This document shows positions 28,881-63,590 of a DNA stretch of 64,000 bases, piece after piece. How positions within the stretch are numbered: position 1 is the stretch's first letter; each line of letters opens with the position of its first letter. The position numbers and the translations under genes are program-made. Source of the DNA: Dehalococcoidia bacterium (GTDB lineage Bacteria > Chloroflexota > Dehalococcoidia > Lucifugimonadales > UBA3495); NCBI GenBank assembly GCA_022827095.1, contig JAJDTP010000025.1:62001-126000 (forward strand). The letters run 5' to 3'. A model generated the notes under the pieces. It was not told where the DNA came from and did not search any database. It saw only the letters and a list, made by a program, of their open reading frames with translations.

Positions 28881-29036
28881 GTCAACCTAGTTATCCAATG
28901 AGATGCGATAATTTATCCCATCTGCGGCATTATAAGTGTCAACACGATTCGCCGCAAACCATTTTCAGCTCCAGTTCCCACTCCCAGGTGGATCGTTGGG
29001 AACGAATTGTCGCATTCGCCGGATCGGCGCGTTTGA

Positions 29037-29531
29037 TTATTGCTCTGGTCCGGAGATGCCCACCTGAACGATACGTGCCTTATCGACGCCGGCTACGCCA
29101 ACATACTGGAACGACTTGCCGTCGGCCTCGCGGGGTTGCATGCCCTGGGTCACCACCTGCTGGTTTCCCAGCAGCAGGTCCGCGAAGGGCGCTGCCTGGG
29201 TGCCGGCGTCCGGGTCAGTGGGGAAGGTGAAGTCCAGGCCTGACACGTTGGTGAACTCGACTCGACCGGTCTCGTCGCTGACCCAGAACTCCGTGATGAT
29301 GCTGGTGTCGGCGATTTCCTTCAGCGTGGCGTTGATTTCATCCGGAGACTGTCCTGCCTCCAGCGCGGCCGCGATGTAATGGGCGGTCAATTTCGCCTGG
29401 GCGACCAAGTGCGCGGTTTCGTTTGCGTTAGTTGGCTCGGCCTCGTGATCGGACGCGCATCCCGCCGCCAGAACCATTGCCATCGCTGCTATCGCCAGTG
29501 CGTAAAATGCTCGCATTTCACTCTTCTCCAT
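29037..29531 (-). CDS. Lipoprotein with Cache-like sensory domain
   Basis: The 164-residue protein has a signal ALAIAAMAMVLAAGC with lipobox LAAGC and a single extracytoplasmic domain of the small Cache type: LTAHYIAAALEAGQSPDEIN, ITEFWVSDETGRVEFTNVSG and a closing VAGVDKARIVQVGIS. Cache domains bind small ligands. Without kinase or receptor parts it may be a free-standing sensor or scavenger. ATG 29531 follows GAGGTG; ATG 29516 (after GGAG) is an alternative that still keeps the signal. It is divergent from the pentapeptide/TIR gene with an 85-nt gap. Confidence 0.75.
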   Translation of the reverse strand: MEKSEMRAFYALAIAAMAMVLAAGCASDHEAEPTNANETAHLVAQAKLTAHYIAAALEAGQSPDEINATLKEIADTSIITEFWVSDETGRVEFTNVSGLDFTFPTDPDAGTQAAPFADLLLGNQQVVTQGMQPREADGKSFQYVGVAGVDKARIVQVGISGPEQ

Positions 29532-29616
29532 CGCTGGTGACACCTCGATCCAGGGCCTTATGCGGTGCAATTTTATGCTAAAATCGCCGCTGAATCCCTC
29601 ACGGAGACGTGTAAAA

Positions 29617-30900
29617 ATGGCCGACATCGCACTGGTTCAGATCGTCAAGCAGGGGCGCGACGCCGTTGCCGCCTGGCGCGAAGAGCACTCCAACCAAACC
29701 ATGGACCTCAACGCCTGCTACATGAGCCACGCCCGGATCCCCATGGTCAATTTGCGGGGCGCCGACATGCGCGGCGGCGATTTCATGGGCGCGATGGTCC
29801 GCCGCGCTGACCTTTCGAACAGCTACCTGAACGACGCGCATTTCTACCGCGCGGACCTCCGCGAGACCAACCTCAGCCGCGCGATCGCCCCGGGAGCCAA
29901 CTTGCGGGGAGCCGACCTGCGCAACGCGAACCTGTCGGGCGCCAACTTCGACCGCGCCACGCTCTCCGAGGCAAACCTGTCCGGTGCCGACCTCACCAAC
30001 GTCAACCTGGACCGGGCCAACCTGGACCGCGCCAATTTCACCGGCGCCAACCTCACCGGAGCCAGCTTCAACGGTGCCAACCTGTCCCGCACCAACCTGT
30101 CGTCCTGCAACCTCAACGAGGCCGACTTCTACGAAGCCGTGCTCAACGACGTGGTCACCGGCGAGGCCGATTTCAGCAACTGTATTATCGGCTACACCGT
30201 GTTCCAGAACTGCGCCCTGGATAACGCTGTCGGGCTGGAGGAGGTTCGCCACGATGCCCCCAGCACCATCGGGCTGGACACCCTGCTGCGCTCCCGCGGA
30301 GCGCTGCCGCAGTCCTTTATCCTGGGATCCGGAGTGCCGGTGGCAGTGGCCGGATTGCAGGACAGCGTTGCCGACGCCCCAGTAACCACCCTGGAAGTCC
30401 ACATATCCTGCGCTAACGGCGACGTGCCGTTTGCCCGGCAGCTTGAAGCGAACCTTCGCGCCAAGGGCGTGCGCACTTGGGTCTTCGCCGAGGGTTTCCG
30501 GGGCAATCCATTGGTTGACCGGCGCGCCACCTCCGGCGAGGAGGAAATCGAGCGCTGGGTACGCCACTACGACCGGCTGATTGTGGTGTGCACCGCGGCG
30601 GGCCTGGACAGCGAAACCGTCCGCAACGACATCACCGCCGCGCAGGAAGCGCAGCGAACGACGGATAGCTGGACCATGTTCCTTGTTGACGCCGATGGCG
30701 TCATGGGCGGCGGCCGCAACCGCGCCGCCCGCCTCATGACTGAGGAATACCGGTTCTTTGATCTCACCGGTCAGTCCGACAACTCCGACGAGTACCAGGC
30801 AGCGTTGGATGACCTGATCACCAACCTCAGAGAGGAGCATCCCGCCAGCGCGGCCGCTCCCCCGCGCCGGGAGATCGATCCCCGCACGCTCCAGCTGTAG
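29617..30900 (+). CDS. Pentapeptide-repeat protein fused to TIR-like domain
   Basis: The 427-residue protein has a cytoplasmic N-terminal helix, a right-handed pentapeptide helix of A(D/N)Lxx units at about residues 43-200 (for example ANLRGADLRNANLSGANFDR), a linker with DTLLRSRGALPQSFILGSGV and a TIR-like domain at about 257-405. The TIR part shows LEVHISCANGDVPFARQLEA, RTWVFAEGF and DRLIVVCTAAGLDSETVRND. The position that carries catalytic Glu in NADase TIRs appears to be Asp (residue 338), so NADase activity is doubtful. ATG 29617 is preceded by GGAGACGTGTAAAA. A perfect hairpin follows the stop. Confidence 0.85.
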   Translation: MADIALVQIVKQGRDAVAAWREEHSNQTMDLNACYMSHARIPMVNLRGADMRGGDFMGAMVRRADLSNSYLNDAHFYRADLRETNLSRAIAPGANLRGADLRNANLSGANFDRATLSEANLSGADLTNVNLDRANLDRANFTGANLTGASFNGANLSRTNLSSCNLNEADFYEAVLNDVVTGEADFSNCIIGYTVFQNCALDNAVGLEEVRHDAPSTIGLDTLLRSRGALPQSFILGSGVPVAVAGLQDSVADAPVTTLEVHISCANGDVPFARQLEANLRAKGVRTWVFAEGFRGNPLVDRRATSGEEEIERWVRHYDRLIVVCTAAGLDSETVRNDITAAQEAQRTTDSWTMFLVDADGVMGGGRNRAARLMTEEYRFFDLTGQSDNSDEYQAALDDLITNLREEHPASAAAPPRREIDPRTLQL

Positions 30901-30926
30901 CCGCCCTAGCCGTCAGTCAACCCAGA

Positions 30927-30952
30927 GAGGGGCGACCAACCGGTCGCCCCTC
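30927..30952 (+). terminator. Bidirectional hairpin terminator
   Basis: A perfect 11-bp stem GAGGGGCGACC/GGTCGCCCCTC with loop AACC. It lies between two convergent genes ending at 30900 and 30995. Confidence 0.7.
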
Positions 30953-30994
30953 CTGCTATTTCTGCCCCACGGGCATGCGACACCGTCCGGTCGC

Positions 30995-32152
30995 TTACCG
31001 GAATGGTGGTGCGTAGATCTGTCCGCCTTTTGGACAGTTCTGGCACGGCGCGTCGGCCCACAGCGCGTTGCGGCTGCCCGACGGGCGCGGCACGCCCAGC
31101 CCGCCAGATCCGAAATGGCGGTCATAGACCTCTCCGTAGTTGCCCAGTTCGCGGACCACATCCTGCGCCACGGTCTGGCTGAGACCCAGGGTGTCCTGGC
31201 CCCAGGAGCCCTCCAGGCCGAAGAGACGATCAACCGAGGTGCTGCCGGTGCTGGCGGTGGGCACGTTGCCGGAGTTGATGTCGTTGGCCTCGGCGTGGAT
31301 CAGGATGCCGATAACTGACTTGACGATGTCGAACCACTGGTCATCGCCGTGAGGCACGGCCAGGCTGATCGGCTCCTCGGAGATTGTCTCCGGGAGGATT
31401 ATGTGCTCGTCCTCGGCTCCGCCGGCGGCGACGATTTCATCCTTCAGGAAGGTGCGGTCGGTGGTGTACGAGTCACACTGGCCGGCCACGTAGGCAGCGA
31501 TGGACGCCTCGAACGTCTCGAAGGTGACCACGTTCATGTCCAGTTGGTACTGACGGTTGAAGTCCTCGAGGTTCAACTCGCTTGTGGTCCCCTGAGCCAC
31601 GCATACCGACGCGCCTTTCAGGTCGTACGCGCTGCCGATGCCCAGGGCGGTCGGCACGGCGAATCCCTGGCCATCGTAGAGCGTGGTATGGACGAAGTTG
31701 CCGCCCCACGTGGCGTCGCGGCTGCTGCTCCAGGTGTTTACCCAGGCCAGGATATCGAGTTCTCCAGATGCCAACGAGGGACCACGCTCTGCAGCCGACC
31801 CGATGATGTGGAACTCCACCGCGTTGCGATCGCCGAGCACGGCTACTGCGACTGCCCGGCACAGGTCGATCTCGAACCCGTCGTTGCCTCCGTCGTTGTC
31901 AAGATAGCCGTACCCCACCACGTCATTGGTGGTCCCGCAGACGACATGTCCTTGGTTCCTGACCTGGCCGAGCCGTCCTCCGTCCTGGTTGGCAACGCTG
32001 GTGTTCTCGGTATGGATTCCGGGAACTGCTGCGCTCTCGCTGAGCGCCTGTCCTGGGGTGGAGTTCACCGGCGCTGCGGGACTGCAAGCCGCAACGGCCA
32101 GGATAGCTGCCGATACAATGACTATTGCAGGTAGATTGAGGATAGATGTCAT
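30995..32152 (-). CDS. Amino-acid ABC transporter binding lipoprotein (AapJ-like)
   Basis: The 385-residue periplasmic-type binding protein (SBP_bac_3) has lipobox LAVAAC (Cys about 23), a Ser/Pro-rich linker, then VRNQGHVVCGTTNDVVGYGY, DGFEIDLCRAVAVAVLGD, VEFHIIGSAAERGPSLASGE and DLKGASVCVAQGTTSELNLE. These match the AapJ/BztA general amino-acid group. Paired Cys residues (VCGTT with DLCRA; VCVAQ with QCDSY) are typical of this subfamily. No permease or ATPase genes are adjacent. Confidence 0.92.
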   Translation of the reverse strand: MTSILNLPAIVIVSAAILAVAACSPAAPVNSTPGQALSESAAVPGIHTENTSVANQDGGRLGQVRNQGHVVCGTTNDVVGYGYLDNDGGNDGFEIDLCRAVAVAVLGDRNAVEFHIIGSAAERGPSLASGELDILAWVNTWSSSRDATWGGNFVHTTLYDGQGFAVPTALGIGSAYDLKGASVCVAQGTTSELNLEDFNRQYQLDMNVVTFETFEASIAAYVAGQCDSYTTDRTFLKDEIVAAGGAEDEHIILPETISEEPISLAVPHGDDQWFDIVKSVIGILIHAEANDINSGNVPTASTGSTSVDRLFGLEGSWGQDTLGLSQTVAQDVVRELGNYGEVYDRHFGSGGLGVPRPSGSRNALWADAPCQNCPKGGQIYAPPFR

Positions 32153-32219
32153 GTTGGTTCCCCGATTAGCATTTTGCTGGCGACAAGTTAGATTGTGGGG
32201 ACGCGCTACACACGTAAAC

Positions 32220-32245
32220 GGGGGGAGGGCAATCGCCCTCCCCCC
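32220..32245 (-). terminator. Hairpin terminator after RDH-like gene
   Basis: A perfect 11-bp stem GGGGGGAGGGC/GCCCTCCCCCC with loop AATC. It lies 49 nt beyond the RDH-like stop and upstream of the AapJ-like start on the same strand. Confidence 0.65.
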
Positions 32246-32293
32246 TGTTTGGACCGTTCCGAAGAACCGACCTATTTGGATGGCTACATCGAA

Positions 32294-33568
32294 TTAGATG
32301 TAGTCTTCCTCCTCGTACATCATGTCGACGTTGTCGGTGCTCTGGTTGAGGCCGCGGATCACCTGGTTCCGGAACTCGTTGAGCATATCATCGGTGATCT
32401 CGTTGCCGTTGGCGCGGGCGGCGTCCTTCAACGAGTCGAAGGCCCATTCGCCGGTGTCGCCGTGAGGCATGTCGAAGAAGCCGGGCTCGAAGACCGGAAG
32501 CTCGCCGGGGCCGAAGTAGCCCTTGCCCTCGATGTTGTAACCTTCGAGGTCGTGGGTGCCCTTGCCGAGGACCTGACCGGTGGCAGCGTAGTGCTCCATG
32601 GTGGCCTTCATGCCGTACTTCTGGATCGGGCAGACCTTCATGCACACGCCACAGCCGAGGTAGCGAGCCATGACCGGGCGACAGCGCTTGAAGTAGAGCT
32701 TGTTCTTCTCGATTCCACGCCACCAGATCTTGTCGCGCATGAGGGCGCGGCCGGGGCAGCGGTTCACGCAGACCTGGCACACCTGGCAGAAGGCGTGGAT
32801 GCCGTAGTCGACGGGCGCGTCATAGGTGACGTTGGCGTCGGTGGTGATCATCATGATGCGGCAGCGGGAGCCGACGTGGGGGGTCAGCAGGTAGCCGCAA
32901 GCGCCCAGCTGGCCGAGGCCGGCGGCGACGAACATCGGGATGTAGGGGCCGGTGTTGTCGTTGGGGCTGTGGACCTGGGCGCGATAGCCGAGGCCGCGGA
33001 TGAAGTTGCCGAGTTCCAGCCCGGCAGCGCCTTCCGTCCGGTACGTGCTGGAGTGCACGATCTCGGCGTCGATGCTGGGGATGGTCTGGGTGGGCTCGAA
33101 GTCCTGCTCGTAGGCCAGGCAGATGACATGGGGGAACTGGACCCAAGCCTTCTTGCTCTGGTACACGTAACGGATGTCAAAGGCGGTGATACCGACTTCG
33201 ACGAAACCGAGTTCGCGGGCCTTCTGCTTGATGGCTTCAGTTACGTCCTCGCCGGTGGCGTCGGACGTGGGCTCGAGTTCACCAGTCAGGCGGGCGGCCA
33301 TGACCAGGTTGCGATTGAGCTTGTCGTGCTCCTTGCGGATCTCACGCATCTCGGCGTGCTGGTCGCGCAGGGTGTTGGCCCAGTCGCGGGAGGCGCGCTC
33401 GGTGATGTTCATGGTCTCGACGGGGTATTCCCGGGAGTACCAGTCGACCTCGCGCTGGTTCATGGGGATGCCGGGAGTGGTCTCCAGCTCCTCGGGCACC
33501 GGGATTGTTACAGGAGCGTCGCCCAGATACTTACCGGGTCGGCGAACCTCGTGACCGATCGTTAGCAT
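32294..33568 (-). CDS. Reductive-dehalogenase-like 4Fe-4S protein
   Basis: The 424-residue protein resembles the catalytic region of cobalamin-dependent reductive dehalogenases and QueG. It has AGLGQLGACGYLLTPHVGSR at about 216-235, a first cluster motif with Cys 261, 264, 267 and 271 (CQVCQVCVNRCP) and a second with Cys 296, 306, 309 and 313. There is no Tat signal or lipobox, so it should be cytoplasmic, unlike respiratory RDases. No RdhB membrane anchor is nearby. It may reduce organohalides or other substrates, or have another B12/FeS role; the substrate is not predictable. ATG 33568 follows AAGGAGGAGGAT. Confidence 0.83.
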   Translation of the reverse strand: MLTIGHEVRRPGKYLGDAPVTIPVPEELETTPGIPMNQREVDWYSREYPVETMNITERASRDWANTLRDQHAEMREIRKEHDKLNRNLVMAARLTGELEPTSDATGEDVTEAIKQKARELGFVEVGITAFDIRYVYQSKKAWVQFPHVICLAYEQDFEPTQTIPSIDAEIVHSSTYRTEGAAGLELGNFIRGLGYRAQVHSPNDNTGPYIPMFVAAGLGQLGACGYLLTPHVGSRCRIMMITTDANVTYDAPVDYGIHAFCQVCQVCVNRCPGRALMRDKIWWRGIEKNKLYFKRCRPVMARYLGCGVCMKVCPIQKYGMKATMEHYAATGQVLGKGTHDLEGYNIEGKGYFGPGELPVFEPGFFDMPHGDTGEWAFDSLKDAARANGNEITDDMLNEFRNQVIRGLNQSTDNVDMMYEEEDYI

Positions 33569-33615
33569 ATCCTCCTCCTTGGTTGGACTGCGTAGATACG
33601 CCTAATTTGCCGGGA

Positions 33616-33644
33616 AGGGTACTTGCCCGGTTCAATAATGTCAA
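33616..33644 (-). promoter_or_regulatory. Putative promoter of RDH-like gene
   Basis: On the minus strand, a perfect TTGACA (33644-33639), a 17-bp spacer and TACCCT (33621-33616). An imperfect inverted repeat CCGGG/CCCGG overlaps the -10 and could be an operator. The surrounding 33569-33849 shows no recognisable gene. Confidence 0.45.
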
Positions 33645-33849
33645 TACTCGGGCCTCAAAATCATCATATTCCGTTGCTTGATGATAATTATTTTCAGCAG
33701 CCCGTACCTTTTCCAAATAGTTGACCAAATCATCGCGCCGAAGGTTCAGCCACGAGGAATTGCGGTTTATTTCACCGGCTGTAAGCGACGGTGATACACC
33801 GTGCTCTGACCCGAACAATAGGAACTGCCTGGAGGCCAATGAGCCGGCG

Positions 33850-36800
33850 CTAATCCGCCACTCCAACCTGCGCATCGGCGCCCAGAGAGTCCCGCAAGTA
33901 TCGGCCGGTGTGGCTCCGCTCGACCTGAGCCAGGGCCTCGGGCGTGCCGCACGCCAGCAGGTTGCCGCCCAGGTGACCTGCCCCGGGGCCCAGGTCGATG
34001 ACCCAGTCGGCGTTTTTGATGAGGTCCAGGTTGTGTTCGATGAGGAGCACCGAGTTGCCCTGGTCGACCAGCCGGTGCAATACGCGCAGCAGGGCGGCAC
34101 AGTCCTCGAAGGAGAGACCGGTGGTAGGTTCGTCCAGGAGGTACAGCGTGCGGCCGGTGGCGCGGCGGGATAGTTCCGTCGCCAGCTTGACCCGTTGGGC
34201 TTCTCCGCCCGATAGCGTGGTGGCCGGCTGGCCGAGGCGAATGTAACCCAGGCCGACGTCCCGCAGAGTTTGCAGCCTGCTGCGGATGCGAGAGTAGTTC
34301 CAGAAGAAGTCCAGCGCCGTCTCGACGGTCATGGCGAGCACGTCGGCGATGGACTGGTCGCGCAGCGTTACCTCAAGGGCCTCTCGGTTGTAACGGCGGC
34401 CCTGGCAGATTTCGCAGGGCACGGTGACGTCCGGCAGGAATTGCATTTCGATTTGGATGTAGCCTTCGCCCTGGCAGGCCTCGCAACGGCCTCCTTTCAC
34501 GTTGAAGGAGAAGCGGCCCGGCTTGTAACCGCGGATGCGGGCCTCGGGCAGGGTGGCGAACAACTCACGGATGGGGGTGAACGCGCCGGTGTAGGTGGCC
34601 GGGTTGCTGCGCGGGGTGCGCCCGATGGGGGACTGGTCGATGTTCACGACCTTGTCGATGTGCTCGATGCCGGTGACGTCGTCGTGGTCGCCGGGACGGT
34701 CACGGCCCTGGGCGACGGCCTGGGCCAGACGTTTGTAGAGGATGTCGTACACCAGGGTGCTCTTGCCGCTGCCGGACACGCCGGTGACGCACCCCAACAG
34801 CCCCAGCGGGAACTCCACGTCGATGCCCTTGAGATTGTTCTCCCGCGCCCCCACGACGGCGATGGATTTGCCGTTGCCCTCGCGCCGCTCTTCAGGGATG
34901 GGTATCCGCTTGCGGCCGCTGAGGTAGGCGCCGGTCAGCGACGCTTCGTTGGCCATCACCTCGGCCACGTCGCCGGTGGCCACGATGTGGCCGCCGTGCT
35001 CGCCCGCGCCGGGCCCCAGGTCGACGATGTGGTCGGCGGCGCGCATCATGGCGTCGTCGTGCTCGACCACGATCACCGTGTTGCCCATGTCGCGCAGGCG
35101 GGTCAGCGTCCCGATGAGACGGTGGTCATCGTGGGGATGCAGGCCGACCGTGGGCTCGTCGCACACGTACAGTACGCCGGTGAGCCCGCTGCCGATCTGG
35201 GTGGCCAACCTGACCCGCTGGGCCTCTCCACCCGAAAGCGTGCGGGCAGTGCGGCCCATCGTCACGTAGTCCAGCCCGATACTGTCCAGGAAGTGCAGAC
35301 GGCCCTCGATCTCCTTGAGGATCTGATCGGCGATGACCATTTCGCGTGGAGTCAGGTGGCTCGGCGCGTCGGGAACCGGGGAACGGCGGCCGTTGCGACG
35401 AGTGCGCCGGCCCTTCCCGTTGGCACCGTTGCCAGAGGGTTGGGCCTCACTATCGCCGAGCGTTTCCAGAGCGTGATGACCGTTGTTGCTACCGTTGACG
35501 GGGGATTGGTCCGGCGAGTCTGCCACCGGCTTGATGCTGCGAACCCAGTTCAGCCCCTCTCCGATGGTCAGGCCGGTGACCTCAATGATGTTTCGACCGC
35601 AGATCAGCACGCCCAGGGCCTCCGGGCGCAGGCGCGCGCCGCTGCAGGACCGACAGGCCCGCTGGGCCATGTATCGTTCGATCTCACCTCGGGTGTGGTC
35701 GGACTCGGTGTCCCGGTAGCGGCGTTGCAGGTTGGGGATCACGCCTTCGTAGGTGGTGTTCCACGAGTAAGTCCGGCCTCGGCCGGTGCGGTGACGCACC
35801 TGCACCTGCTTCTTCCCGGCGCCGTAGAGCACGATGTTGAGGTGTTCTTCGGTAAGCTCGCGCACCGGAGCATTGGGCGAGAAGTCGAACTCGCGGGCCA
35901 CCGCCTCCATCATGCTGGCGTACCAGGCGTTGGCGGCCCCGGAGCGGGCCCAGGGCACGATGGCGCCTTCCAGCAGGGATAGCGAACGGTTCTGGATCAC
36001 CAACGACGGATCAACCTCGAGCTGATAGCCCAACCCGGTACAGGTTGAGCAGGCGCCGTGGGGACTGTTGAAGCTGAAGGTACGCGGTTCGATTTCGGGC
36101 AGGCTGATGCCGCAGGCGACGCAGGCGAACTGCTCGCTGAACACCAGGTCGTCACCGTCCTCGCGGCCCACGGTGAGCACGCCTTCGCCCTCGCGCAGGG
36201 CGGTTTCTACCGACTCGGTGACGCGGCTGGATTCCGTGTCGCTGCGGATGATGAGGCGGTCAACCACGATGTCGATGTAGTGCCACTTCTGCTTGTCCAG
36301 CGCCAGTGCGTCGGTGTCCTCCACCAGCATGACCTCGCCGTTGACGCGGACCCGGACGAACCCGCCCCGGCGAGCGGCCTCGAACACCTCCCGGTGCTCG
36401 CCCTTCTTGCGGCGTATTTTGGGCGCCAGCAGGGTGATGCGGGACGCCTCGGGCAACCCCAGGATGGCATCGACGATCTGCTGGACCGTCTGGCGGGCTA
36501 CCGGGTTGCCGCACTTGGGGCAGTGGGGTTTGCCCACCCGGGCAAACAGGAGACGCAGGTAGTCGTAAATCTCCGTGACGGTTCCCACCGTGGAGCGGGG
36601 GTTGTGGGACACGCCCTTCTGGTCGATTGAAATGGCCGGGGACAGGCCCTCGATGTAATCGACGTCGGGCTTGTCCATGCGCCCCAGGAACTGGCGGGCG
36701 TAGGCGGAAAGCGACTCCACGTAGCGGCGTTGGCCCTCGGCGTAGATGGTGTCGAAAGCCAGGCTGCTCTTGCCGGACCCGGACACGCCGGTGATCACGA

Positions 36801-36885
36801 CGAGCCGGTCCCGGGGGATCGTCACGTCCACGTTCTTCAGGTTGTGCTCGCGAGCGCCCTTGATGAAGATGACTTCCTGCGGCAT
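33850..36885 (-). CDS. uvrA: Excinuclease ABC subunit UvrA
   Basis: The 1011-residue double ABC-ATPase of nucleotide excision repair recognises damaged DNA and loads UvrB. Seen: Walker [15 protein letters not shown] near the start, [20 protein letters not shown], zinc-type CPKCGNPV and [13 protein letters not shown], signature [19 protein letters not shown], then a second Walker [26 protein letters not shown] and [16 protein letters not shown]. It is longer than the usual about 940, mainly through a Gly/Asn/Arg-rich insert between [12 protein letters not shown] and [13 protein letters not shown]. Start is ATG 36885. Confidence 0.96.
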
Positions 36886-36895
36886 AAAAGCTTTC

Positions 36896-37307
36896 TCACA
36901 TAAGAATGGTGAACCCAGCCTGTGTGAAGTGGTGGTCGTTGGTCAAGGCTTCCCGGATGTTCCGTCTAGCCATCAGCTGGAAACTGGCACAATCTACGAG
37001 GCCCCATTCTTGGTCAGGGCGGGAGTGGTAGAAAATCGACAGTATCCCAGAATCGTACGTCCGATAAGATGACAACTTCCACGTCAGGGCTATCGTGAAG
37101 TTCTCGGGCCAATGCAACGGCGGCACGTCGTTTGTGCGGACCCAACTCTGCGAAGAAATTCAGAACCTCGCCAAGCACGAGTTCACTCGTCACGATGCGA
37201 CCGGGATCGACAGTTTCCGAAAGTAGCAAAGCTATCTCATGGAGAGCATCCCGTTTGTTCAACCGCGCGATCCAGAAGCAGGCGTCGGCAAAGACGTCCG
37301 CCATCAA
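36896..37307 (-). pseudogene. PIN-domain toxin gene, single-base frameshift
   Basis: The first frame (from 37307) gives ADVFADACFWIARLNKRDAL, SELVLGEVLNFFAE and ILSDVRFWDTVDF. The rest continues in another frame as YHSRPDQEWGLVDCASFQLM and EALTNDHHFTQAGFTIL. Deleting one T from the T run (A run 37032-37035 on the plus strand) rejoins VDFYHSRPDQEWG. PIN catalytic acids are all visible (Asp in ADAC, Glu in LGEV, Asp in LVDC and TNDHHF). PIN toxins are RNases. Its start overlaps the preceding gene by 4 nt. A real lesion or an assembly error are both possible. Confidence 0.75.
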
Positions 37308-37714
37308 TCGTCCACCTTGGCGCGCCCGTACAGGTAATGATGAAAATTCTTTGCACCGTCAGTGGGCACGTCCGACCAATCCACGGACTTGCCGATTTCC
37401 GAAATTCTGTGCCATAGCGTGGGCATCTCGGGATCCTGCGGAGGAACCACACGACGCGTCTTGGTGAGGTCAATGCTGACGATCTTTCGCAGTTGCCCGT
37501 CGGCATAATCGCCCTCCCCGACTATCTTCACGCTGTACTTTCCATGGTTGTGCATACTCTCAACGTATGACCATTGGGAAGATGTGAAGTCGGCAAGGAT
37601 CGTTGAACCGTCCTCCAGTTGCAGCTTGTATGAGCCGTTGTGGTCAAGGTCCAGCTCCATGGACTTGACCTCGGCGATTACTTCGACGGGATGGCGGCCG
37701 TTTTTCTCAGTCAT
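37304..37714 (-). CDS. Uncharacterised partner of PIN toxin (putative antitoxin)
   Basis: The 136-residue protein is predicted to start at ATG 37714 (MTEKNGRHPVEVIAEVKSME). A start at 37744, overlapping the biotin carrier stop as ATGA, is possible. It contains a beta-rich segment SYKLQLEDGSTILADFTSSQ and ends FHHYLYGRAKVDD. I do not recognise a named family. Its overlap with the PIN gene (ATGA at 37307-37304) suggests it is the antitoxin or a chaperone of that module. Confidence 0.6.
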   Translation of the reverse strand: MTEKNGRHPVEVIAEVKSMELDLDHNGSYKLQLEDGSTILADFTSSQWSYVESMHNHGKYSVKIVGEGDYADGQLRKIVSIDLTKTRRVVPPQDPEMPTLWHRISEIGKSVDWSDVPTDGAKNFHHYLYGRAKVDD

Positions 37715-61671: not shown

Positions 61672-62436
61672 ATGCCACACAATTTCTGGATGATCAATTG
61701 CAACGAGGAAAACTATAACGTTACGCGACGGCTGGGGTTCACCGGACAGGGGTTGAAGGCAGAGTATCGGCGCAAGGTGCAGCGGGTCGAGCCGGGGGAT
61801 CGGGTCATCTACTACGTGACCGGGTCGCGCGTGTTCACGGCGACGGCCACCGTCACGCAGGGGTACGAAGAGGTCGGTTCAGGCCCCTGGATCAAAGAGG
61901 GCAAGGCGACGTGGCCCTATCGCATCGGCATCAAACCGGACGTGGTACTGGAGAACGATCAATACATCAGCGCCGGTCTCATCGCCTACCGGTTGGAATA
62001 CGTGCGGAAGTGGGCGCCGGAAGACTGGTACATGGCGTTCCAGGGCAATTTGCACCTGCTTTCCAAGAGCGACTTTTTCCTGCTGGAAGGGGAGATGCTG
62101 AAGCTCCGGGACGGGAGGGAAAAGGCGTTGGAGCAGATCGACGCTGCGCTGGCCGCGGAGGAGGAACGCGTGAGCGCACAACGCGAGCGGCGGCGGCGAA
62201 ATGCGACCCGGAACAACGCCCGCCCGCAGCCGCCTCGTGTTCCGGCAGCGGCAGATGATCAGCCCGCTATGATCCAGTCTCCCGAACCGATTGTTGAAAC
62301 GGATGCTGAACCGACGGAATCGGAAACCTCTACTGACATGGGCCGCAATAACGGACGCGCGCGACGGAATCCGCGGAATCGCGGCAACAACCGACGGTCG
62401 GGTCCCAGGCAATCGCCGCGCTATGACAACGAATAG
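61672..62436 (+). CDS. EVE-domain protein with basic RG-rich tail
   Basis: The 254-residue protein starts MPHNFWMINCNEENYNVTRR; the EVE domain runs to about 150, with VEPGDRVIYYVTGSRVFTAT. EVE domains bind modified bases or nucleotides and are related to YTH/PUA. A long helix (REKALEQIDAALAAEEERVS) and a disordered tail rich in Arg, Asn and Gly (GRNNGRARRNPRNRGNNRRS) follow; the tail may bind nucleic acid. ATG 61672 is preferred over an upstream start at 61645. It ends 16 nt inside the convergent queG end. Confidence 0.8.
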   Translation: MPHNFWMINCNEENYNVTRRLGFTGQGLKAEYRRKVQRVEPGDRVIYYVTGSRVFTATATVTQGYEEVGSGPWIKEGKATWPYRIGIKPDVVLENDQYISAGLIAYRLEYVRKWAPEDWYMAFQGNLHLLSKSDFFLLEGEMLKLRDGREKALEQIDAALAAEEERVSAQRERRRRNATRNNARPQPPRVPAAADDQPAMIQSPEPIVETDAEPTESETSTDMGRNNGRARRNPRNRGNNRRSGPRQSPRYDNE

Positions 62437-63590
62437 GGGGCGTCGACGGCGTCCAGGGCCTGCCTGATTTCAGAGCGCACTTCGGCGTTCGTTTCGTGGA
62501 CCCACGCGCCGGCGAGGGAGCATCGGGCGTCGGCCCCGCCGATGCGGCCCAAAGCCCAGGCCGCGTGTGCTCGTACCAGGGGCGGCGCGGTCGTCAGTGC
62601 ACGAGTCAAACCGGGGACGGCGGAAGGGTCGCCGGAATTGCCCAAGGCGACGCAGGCGTTACGTTGCATACCCACATGCTTGGCGCGCATGATGGGGGTG
62701 CCGGCGAAACGCTGGCGGAATTGCTCTTCGGTCATGTCGAGGAGTTCCACCAGGTCGATTGAGGAAAGATCGGTGCGTCCGAAATTGGGATCCCCGGTGG
62801 ACATCGCCTTGCGGTTCACGGGGCACACCTCCTGGCAGATGTCGCAACCGAAGACCCAGTTGCCCATGGACGCGCGCAACTCGGTGGGGATGGCTCCTTT
62901 GTGCTCGATGGTCAGGTAGCTGATGCAACGGCGATTGTCGACGACGTAGGGGGCGACGATGGCGTCGGTGGGACACACTGGGATGCAGCGGGCGCACTGC
63001 CCGCAGGTCTTGGCGAGTGGCGGGTCGGCGACCAGCGGCAAGTCGGTGATTATCTGGCCGAGCAGGAGCCATGAGCCGTAGGTCGGGTTGAGGATGTTGC
63101 CGTTCTTGCCGAACCAGCCGAGGCCGGCGCGGGCGGCGGCGGCGCGGTCGAGCATCGGACCATCGTCGACGTACCAGCGGGCGGCAAACCGGTCGCCCAG
63201 CCGCTCGGTCAGCTCCAGCACCACGCGGCGCATGCGGCGTTTCATCATGCGATGGTAGTCGCGGCCGCGGGCATACCGCGCGATCAGGCCGTCGCGATCA
63301 TTTGCCGGCGGGTTTTCGGGCGGGTAGTAGTTCCAGCCCAGGGAGATGATCGAGCGGGCGCCGGTCAGGAGGGCTTCGGGGTCAGCGCCGCGTCGCACGC
63401 GTTGGGCGTTGAACCAGGGCAATCCGTCCATCAGGCCGTCGTCAATGCGGCGGAGGGCTTCCTCACGGTCGGAGGCAAACGTATCGGCGGAGGTGACGGC
63501 GACCAGGTCGAAACCCGCATCGCGCGCCGCCTGGTTGACCCATTGGCGCAGTTGCGCGGGTTCCACGGCAATTTCTGGGCCGGAGTTCAC
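62421..63590 (-). CDS. queG: Epoxyqueuosine reductase QueG
   Basis: The 389-residue cobalamin-dependent enzyme reduces epoxyqueuosine to queuosine in tRNA. Clusters are seen as CGQCARCIPVCPTDAI (Cys 196, 199, 202, 206) and Cys 222 with CDICQEVCPV (249, 252, 256). WYVDDGPMLDRAAAARAGLG (Asp 143 is likely the catalytic acid) and GWFGKNGNIL are family marks. A C-terminal HEAT-repeat part (LVRAHAAWALGRIGGADARC) follows. It overlaps the dUTPase-like stop by 4 nt, so the two genes are co-transcribed. Confidence 0.94.
   Translation of the reverse strand: MNSGPEIAVEPAQLRQWVNQAARDAGFDLVAVTSADTFASDREEALRRIDDGLMDGLPWFNAQRVRRGADPEALLTGARSIISLGWNYYPPENPPANDRDGLIARYARGRDYHRMMKRRMRRVVLELTERLGDRFAARWYVDDGPMLDRAAAARAGLGWFGKNGNILNPTYGSWLLLGQIITDLPLVADPPLAKTCGQCARCIPVCPTDAIVAPYVVDNRRCISYLTIEHKGAIPTELRASMGNWVFGCDICQEVCPVNRKAMSTGDPNFGRTDLSSIDLVELLDMTEEQFRQRFAGTPIMRAKHVGMQRNACVALGNSGDPSAVPGLTRALTTAPPLVRAHAAWALGRIGGADARCSLAGAWVHETNAEVRSEIRQALDAVDAPYSLS

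Follow-up and report, generated by a model that had tools for sequence, protein, structure and literature searches.

A cytoplasmic reductive-dehalogenase-like protein family of SAR202 bacteria that is also carried by phages

The window, the whole stretch of 64,000 nucleotides that was analysed, carries a gene for a reductive dehalogenase (RDase)-like protein on its minus strand (33568..32294). ORF reading and translation showed that the ORF is real, as had been predicted, and that it encodes 424 amino acids from an ATG at 33568. The nearest relatives, with identities of 94-98%, are found in assemblies of SAR202 and Dehalococcoidia, which identifies the source genome as SAR202/Dehalococcoidia. 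The neighbouring genes were called with a codon-scored gene caller; antisense ORFs in the GC-rich DNA had misled a simple ORF-based analysis. Directly downstream on the minus strand is a gene for a solute-binding protein (SBP_bac_3, PF00497; 30995..32152), and such a protein also adjoins the RDase-like gene at the loci L001, L003 and L007. A strong hairpin, GGGGGGAGGGC-AATC-GCCCTCCCCCC (32220-32245), separates the two genes. It has no T run and is absent from the output of the terminator scan. A conserved convergent neighbour on the plus strand (29617..30900) encodes a pentapeptide-repeat protein with a C-terminal TIR_2 domain. It is adjacent or near in about 30 SAR202 loci, and PADLOC gave no match for it.

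No Tat motif with a hydrophobic stretch was found in the RDase-like protein, the peak hydropathy of the first 60 residues being 0.31 (15-residue window). Nor is there a membrane segment, the maximum hydropathy anywhere being 1.5 over 19 residues. An ORF scan of window positions 29000-37500 found no rdhB-like small multi-TM ORF. These scans bear out the original prediction, which had stated that both the Tat signal and rdhB are missing. In addition, all aligned family members begin alike at the N-terminus, without an export signal. As judged from its sequence, the protein is most likely cytoplasmic and non-respiratory. A respiratory RDase stripped of its export signal and anchor would share the core fold and motifs seen here, but such an origin is highly improbable given the missing Tat signal and rdhB, the common N-terminus of all aligned members and a clade that stands apart from the respiratory RDases in the tree described below.

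Upstream of the gene lies a sigma-70-type promoter (33616..33644, minus strand) that is conserved in homologues. It consists of TTGACA (33639-33644), a 17 nt spacer and TACCCT (33616-33621). The perfect TTGACA promoter had been noted earlier and it stands: the hexamer occurs in all 46 of the homologous regions compared, followed in nearly every case, some 17 nt further on, by a TAnnnT-like hexamer. These are regions of related homologues and not 46 independent events, and the intergenic bases around the motif do vary; the recurrence of TTGACA in every region is not due to chance. In L051, the most distant homologue, TTGACA is present at a different place. An inverted repeat, CCGGG-N11-CCCGG, covers the -10 region (33610..33630; arms 33610-33614 and 33626-33630). 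The repeat, also noted earlier, is intact in both the window and L001; the other homologues do not conserve it, and it is therefore probably incidental. As evidence of an operator it was rejected, since it is unconserved in the aligned homologues. No Rfam element was found upstream of the gene. In the genus-level homologues a second conserved element, AATATGATNATT, is seen upstream of TTGACA (window about 33640-33680).

The translation has two [4Fe-4S] motifs, both on the minus strand. The first is a CxxCxxCxxxCP motif (C261-x2-C264-x2-C267-x3-C271-P; 32756..32788) that is invariant in the family, in RDases and in QueG. The second is the conserved C296...C306-x2-C309-x3-C313-P (32630..32683). 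All eight cysteines are essentially invariant in an alignment of 82 sequences, so that both motifs are intact, as originally claimed. The protein scores below threshold with both models of the superfamily: 100.3 bits with the RDase model TIGR02486 (cut-off 160) and 44.5 bits with the QueG model TIGR00276 (cut-off 200). PF13486 was not reported in the domain annotation; a PF13486 search of the source genome gave no match, and since the control genomes gave none either, that search is uninformative. Among solved structures the best sequence matches are NpRdhA (3e-22), which is the top phmmer match, the tetrachloroethene RDase 8q4h (1e-21) and S. multivorans PceA (8e-15), with QueG far behind.

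The fold was modelled in two AlphaFold runs with 20 and 51 sequences, giving a mean pLDDT of 57-58 with no cofactor modelled. The low pLDDT is probably due to input sequences that are too alike. The model is weak over the Fe-S half, and its confident core matches B12 proteins, RDases first. Foldseek with this weak model (mean pLDDT 57-58) returned RDases for all of the top 36 matches, which concern the core. In a second fold comparison RDases reached Z scores of 14-16, QueG 13-14 and the B12 chaperones CblD and CblC 8-10. The cysteines and the fold matches together give the arrangement that defines the RDase/QueG superfamily, two [4Fe-4S] motifs following a cobalamin-binding nitroreductase-like fold. 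The presence of CblD and CblC among the fold matches raises the reading that this is a cobalamin-handling protein, carrying out reductive decyanation, dealkylation or B12 re-activation with no substrate reduction. One paralogue flanked by dimethylglycine-dehydrogenase-like and MTHFR-like genes would also suit such a role. RDases fit better, however, and over more of the protein, and the Fe-S ligands are conserved together with the Tyr-Arg pair described below; the reading is improbable.

A phylogeny of the kind that the original prediction called for was built from 82 sequences, among them 33 family members, four NpRdhA-type enzymes, six respiratory RDases and four QueG sequences. The 33 family members form a single clade (SH-aLRT 100) that is separate from the NpRdhA-type enzymes, the respiratory RDases and QueG, in a tree made by a quick method in which some long branches meet. 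The NpRdhA-type enzymes and the QueG sequences each form a separate, fully supported clade, and the RDase-like protein lies outside both. Placement in an unrelated Fe-S family with no B12 site, the outcome named beforehand as speaking against the prediction, did not occur.

The possibility of a second epoxyqueuosine reductase, a QueG-like tRNA enzyme, arises from the common superfamily and the 44 bits to TIGR00276, and like QueG the protein is cytoplasmic and has the Fe-S motifs. It falls under the cut-off of 200, though, and the same window holds a genuine QueG gene, used as a control outside the feature (62421..63590, minus strand; TIGR00276 350 bits, cut-off 200). With a QueG of its own in the genome and the QueG clade separate and fully supported, QueG was rejected as the identity of the protein, and the chance that it is a second such enzyme is very slight.

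A further difference from QueG lies in two residues. Tyr176 (codon 33041..33043, minus strand) aligns with the catalytic Tyr426 of NpRdhA and with Tyr246 of PceA, and Arg237 (codon 32858..32860, minus strand) with Lys488 of NpRdhA and Arg305 of PceA. In the PceA profile alignment Tyr176 and Tyr246 are paired in an ungapped stretch, and Arg237 is paired with Arg305. In the two RDases these residues are the proton donor and its partner. Among diverse family members the first position is Tyr in 30 of 33 and the second Arg in 32 of 33. QueG has His at the first and Phe or Leu at the second, so that the pair is missing from it. By sequence alignment, Tyr176 and Arg237 thus provide the pair of Tyr and Arg or Lys that serves as proton donor in RdhA proteins. 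Tyr with a basic residue has been described as a conserved Y-K/R dyad (PMC10463259). This supports an RDase-type proton delivery in the protein.

The fold, the Fe-S ligands, the Tyr-Arg pair and the tree together support a place on the RDase side of the RDase/QueG superfamily. The protein fits no named group and founds a clade of its own by sequence, because its score is under the RDase cut-off and the family clade is apart from the respiratory RDases, the NpRdhA type and QueG. The same four lines of evidence support the earlier proposal of a cytoplasmic RDase-like protein that may be a catabolic dehalogenase or a different B12 enzyme; its place in the tree is outside the catabolic clade of the NpRdhA type.

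Among the closest known systems, NpRdhA, BhbA and JtRdhA (from Nitratireductor, Comamonas and Jhaorihella) are likewise cytoplasmic and without Tat signal, with two [4Fe-4S] motifs, the cobalamin fold and the Tyr plus basic residue. They are about 1,000-1,070 amino acids long, whereas the RDase-like protein has 424, carries Arg in place of Lys and belongs to a separate clade. Catabolic RDases of the NpRdhA type have a duplicated cobalamin domain and a fused reductase module, and no Tat signal or RdhB (PMC10463259). The duplicated domain and the fused module are absent from the RDase-like protein, which has a single domain set. The respiratory RDases (PceA, TIGR02486) share the core fold, the Fe-S ligands and the Tyr246 and Arg305 equivalents; unlike them the RDase-like protein lacks Tat and RdhB, scores under the family cut-off and sits in another clade. 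The cytoplasmic RdhA of the DEH-C11 type, from marine sediment Dehalococcoidia, comes from the same bacterial class, also lacks a Tat signal and RdhB, and its clade has been described as sister to the NpRdhA type (PMC4959651). The present family is outside the clade holding the NpRdhA-type enzymes in the 82-sequence tree, which would set it apart from DEH-C11 as well.

A supply of B12 is plausible because the source genome carries CobN, CbiE, CobB and CobO-type genes and five cobalamin riboswitches. Around the RDase-like gene a recurrent gene order was found: rsmI, a TPP enzyme, one to several tandem RDase-like copies, then the opposite-strand pentapeptide-TIR gene, with pyrB and der further off. 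The TPP enzyme, whose nearest solved structures are 2-hydroxyacyl-CoA lyase and benzaldehyde lyase, adjoins the RDase-like gene across distant lineages and often precedes it, so that the two are linked in an operon-like way. It is present in 46 of 49 genomes of the taxonomic family; in the genome of the window it is on another contig. Some family members have neighbours of aromatic catabolism. The second copy in the source genome adjoins a thioredoxin-reductase-like flavoprotein, an MBL-fold hydrolase and two LigB-type ring-cleavage dioxygenases, and a distant family member (L180 7020-9373) overlaps the alpha-subunit gene of a Rieske ring-hydroxylating dioxygenase by a few bases. Paralogues from other lineages (L172 7082-11833 and L175 5330-10115) lie between dimethylglycine-dehydrogenase-like (DAO + GCV_T) and MTHFR-like genes, which hints at folate or C1 chemistry in that branch. 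A hotdog protein matching Pfam FlK (fluoroacetyl-CoA thioesterase family, a broad family name; 1.8e-33) is found near the locus at L054 3664-4017 and at 18 other loci.

The family is close to universal in its taxonomic family. A profile search matched 48 of 50 genomes, most of them at least twice, including all 18 with at least 90% completeness and at most 5% contamination. Across the order, matches of any strength occur in 109 of 197 genomes, and by our count 89 genomes contain a match below 1e-100; full-length members are sporadic outside the order. The source genome has at least one further copy, broken by two contig ends. Conservation was compared with that of the neighbours in matched locus pairs. 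Mean identity was 84.1% for the RDase-like protein against 60.6% for the pentapeptide-TIR protein (higher in 301 of 301 pairs), 82.1% against 63.2% for rsmI (higher in 159 of 159) and 77.7% against 66.0% for pyrB. The values were close for the TPP enzyme (80.7% against 78.3%) and, within the genus, for coaBC (94.6% against 91.1%). Thus on average the RDase-like protein is better conserved than each neighbour, and only the TPP enzyme and, in the genus, coaBC come near; the mean identity across loci is the same, 78%, for the RDase-like protein and the TPP enzyme. Within the genus the gene is under purifying selection, with a dN/dS of 0.07-0.10. Its codon adaptation of 0.751, measured against a ribosomal-protein reference set, is the highest of the 49 window genes (median 0.595) and exceeds that of most of the reference ribosomal proteins. 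From codon usage the gene is probably well expressed. A slowly evolving, multi-copy gene found throughout a SAR202 family, its link to the TPP enzyme and its carriage by phages all go beyond what had been predicted from the window.

Scans of IMG/VR found the RDase-like gene on three contigs: 3300030107_003392, 3300038825_001297 and 3300006332_000343. The copy on the last is truncated by the contig end; the other two are complete and intact, with all motif residues present. The family genes on tailed-phage contigs are at L208 6445-8883, L212 9935-12814 and L209 6801-7264. Viral hallmark genes lie on all three: 3300006332 encodes a portal and an exonuclease, 3300038825 an SU10-type major capsid protein, and 3300030107 a close relative of that capsid protein. 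Any one contig might be a chimeric assembly, but three that share a junction are unlikely to be. The two complete phage copies form one group within the family tree. They share 89-92% identity with the SAR202 genomes L015 and L017; the GC content of L017, about 40%, resembles that of the phage contigs. From the gene similarity and base composition we infer that the phage host is SAR202. The two complete copies differ at 67% of synonymous and 3% of nonsynonymous sites, a dN/dS of 0.02. An intact gene on contigs with viral hallmarks and under purifying selection is the pattern of an auxiliary metabolic gene. In both complete copies a solute-binding protein gene follows directly, and its product and the solute-binding protein of the window belong to one family, with 32% full-length identity; a pattern scan with the window protein found no viral relative, although the viral protein is such a 32% relative. 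In the sister contigs L217 and L215 the flanking gene is the same, but the solute-binding protein comes directly after it and the RDase-like gene is missing; the RDase-like gene is therefore accessory cargo. Among INPHARED phages only partial, QueG-like matches were found.

The protein is predicted to be a soluble, non-respiratory reductive enzyme dependent on cobalamin and two [4Fe-4S] clusters. A dehalogenase function is the likeliest reading, and we give it roughly an even chance. A soluble donor of low potential, which may be ferredoxin, flavodoxin or a separate flavoprotein, would reduce the Fe-S clusters, and these in turn would take the cobalt of a buried corrinoid from Co(II) to Co(I). 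This cobalt would then break the bond between carbon and a leaving group, with Tyr176 and Arg237 supplying the proton. The leaving group would most likely be the halide of a natural marine organohalide. The product would enter the aerobic carbon catabolism of the cell, in which the TPP lyase-like enzyme probably acts one step before or after, and the phage copy would act as an auxiliary metabolic gene that sustains flux during infection. Three points favour dehalogenation: the Tyr-Arg pair, the aromatic-ring dioxygenases encoded next to some members, and the organohalides that the sea supplies. The enzyme is thus probably, though not firmly, a catabolic dehalogenase.

The same cofactors and Co(I) chemistry could also serve the reductive cleavage of a non-halide substrate, for example an intermediate that is oxidised or epoxide-like. 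Such a step would belong to a core SAR202 pathway in which the TPP lyase-like enzyme also takes part. This is a serious alternative, given a smaller though considerable share of the probability, as is a reductive reaction other than dehalogenation in general. A near-universal, slowly evolving and probably well-expressed gene suggests a core step more than a specialised organohalide pathway and so weighs against dehalogenation. The presence in 48 of 50 genomes and in all 18 good ones, the conservation equal to that of the TPP enzyme and above the pentapeptide-TIR protein and rsmI in every pair, and the top codon adaptation all favour the non-halide reading. The TPP enzyme, adjoining the gene in distant lineages and nearest to the two lyases, points to central carbon chemistry. 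The folate and amine neighbours of other paralogues hint at other chemistry. The score under the RDase cut-off and the absence of PF13486 from the domain annotation likewise count against a dehalogenase. Against a non-halide substrate stand the Tyr-Arg pair, which is the proton donor of RDases and absent from QueG, the known non-dehalogenating relative, and the aromatic-ring dioxygenases beside some members. In its fullest form, that the family is a non-dehalogenating, B12-dependent reductive core step of SAR202 carbon metabolism working with the TPP lyase, and that phages of SAR202 help to maintain this flux during infection by bringing in the gene along with a solute-binding protein, the proposal is tentative and somewhat less likely again.

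SAR202 bacteria are abundant and uncultured in the ocean, and are thought to oxidise recalcitrant organic matter. Cytoplasmic RDases lacking Tat and RdhB are already known (PMC4959651, PMC10463259). One comparison found the marine cluster II without rdh genes except for a partial one (PMC7506110). A keyword search of SAR202 papers returned no description of such a gene, and the literature searched here contained no paper on this family or on an RDase-like gene in a marine phage. What is new is a separate clade that is near-universal in a SAR202 family and is carried by phages. Its near-universal presence, unusually slow evolution and phage carriage make an important role in SAR202 likely. The carriage of an RDase-like B12/Fe-S enzyme by SAR202 and by phages suggests a reductive step in ocean carbon chemistry. 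If the enzyme dehalogenates, these SAR202 bacteria would carry out reductive dehalogenation as a routine activity that is not part of organohalide respiration; otherwise the enzyme would represent a new reaction for the RDase fold.
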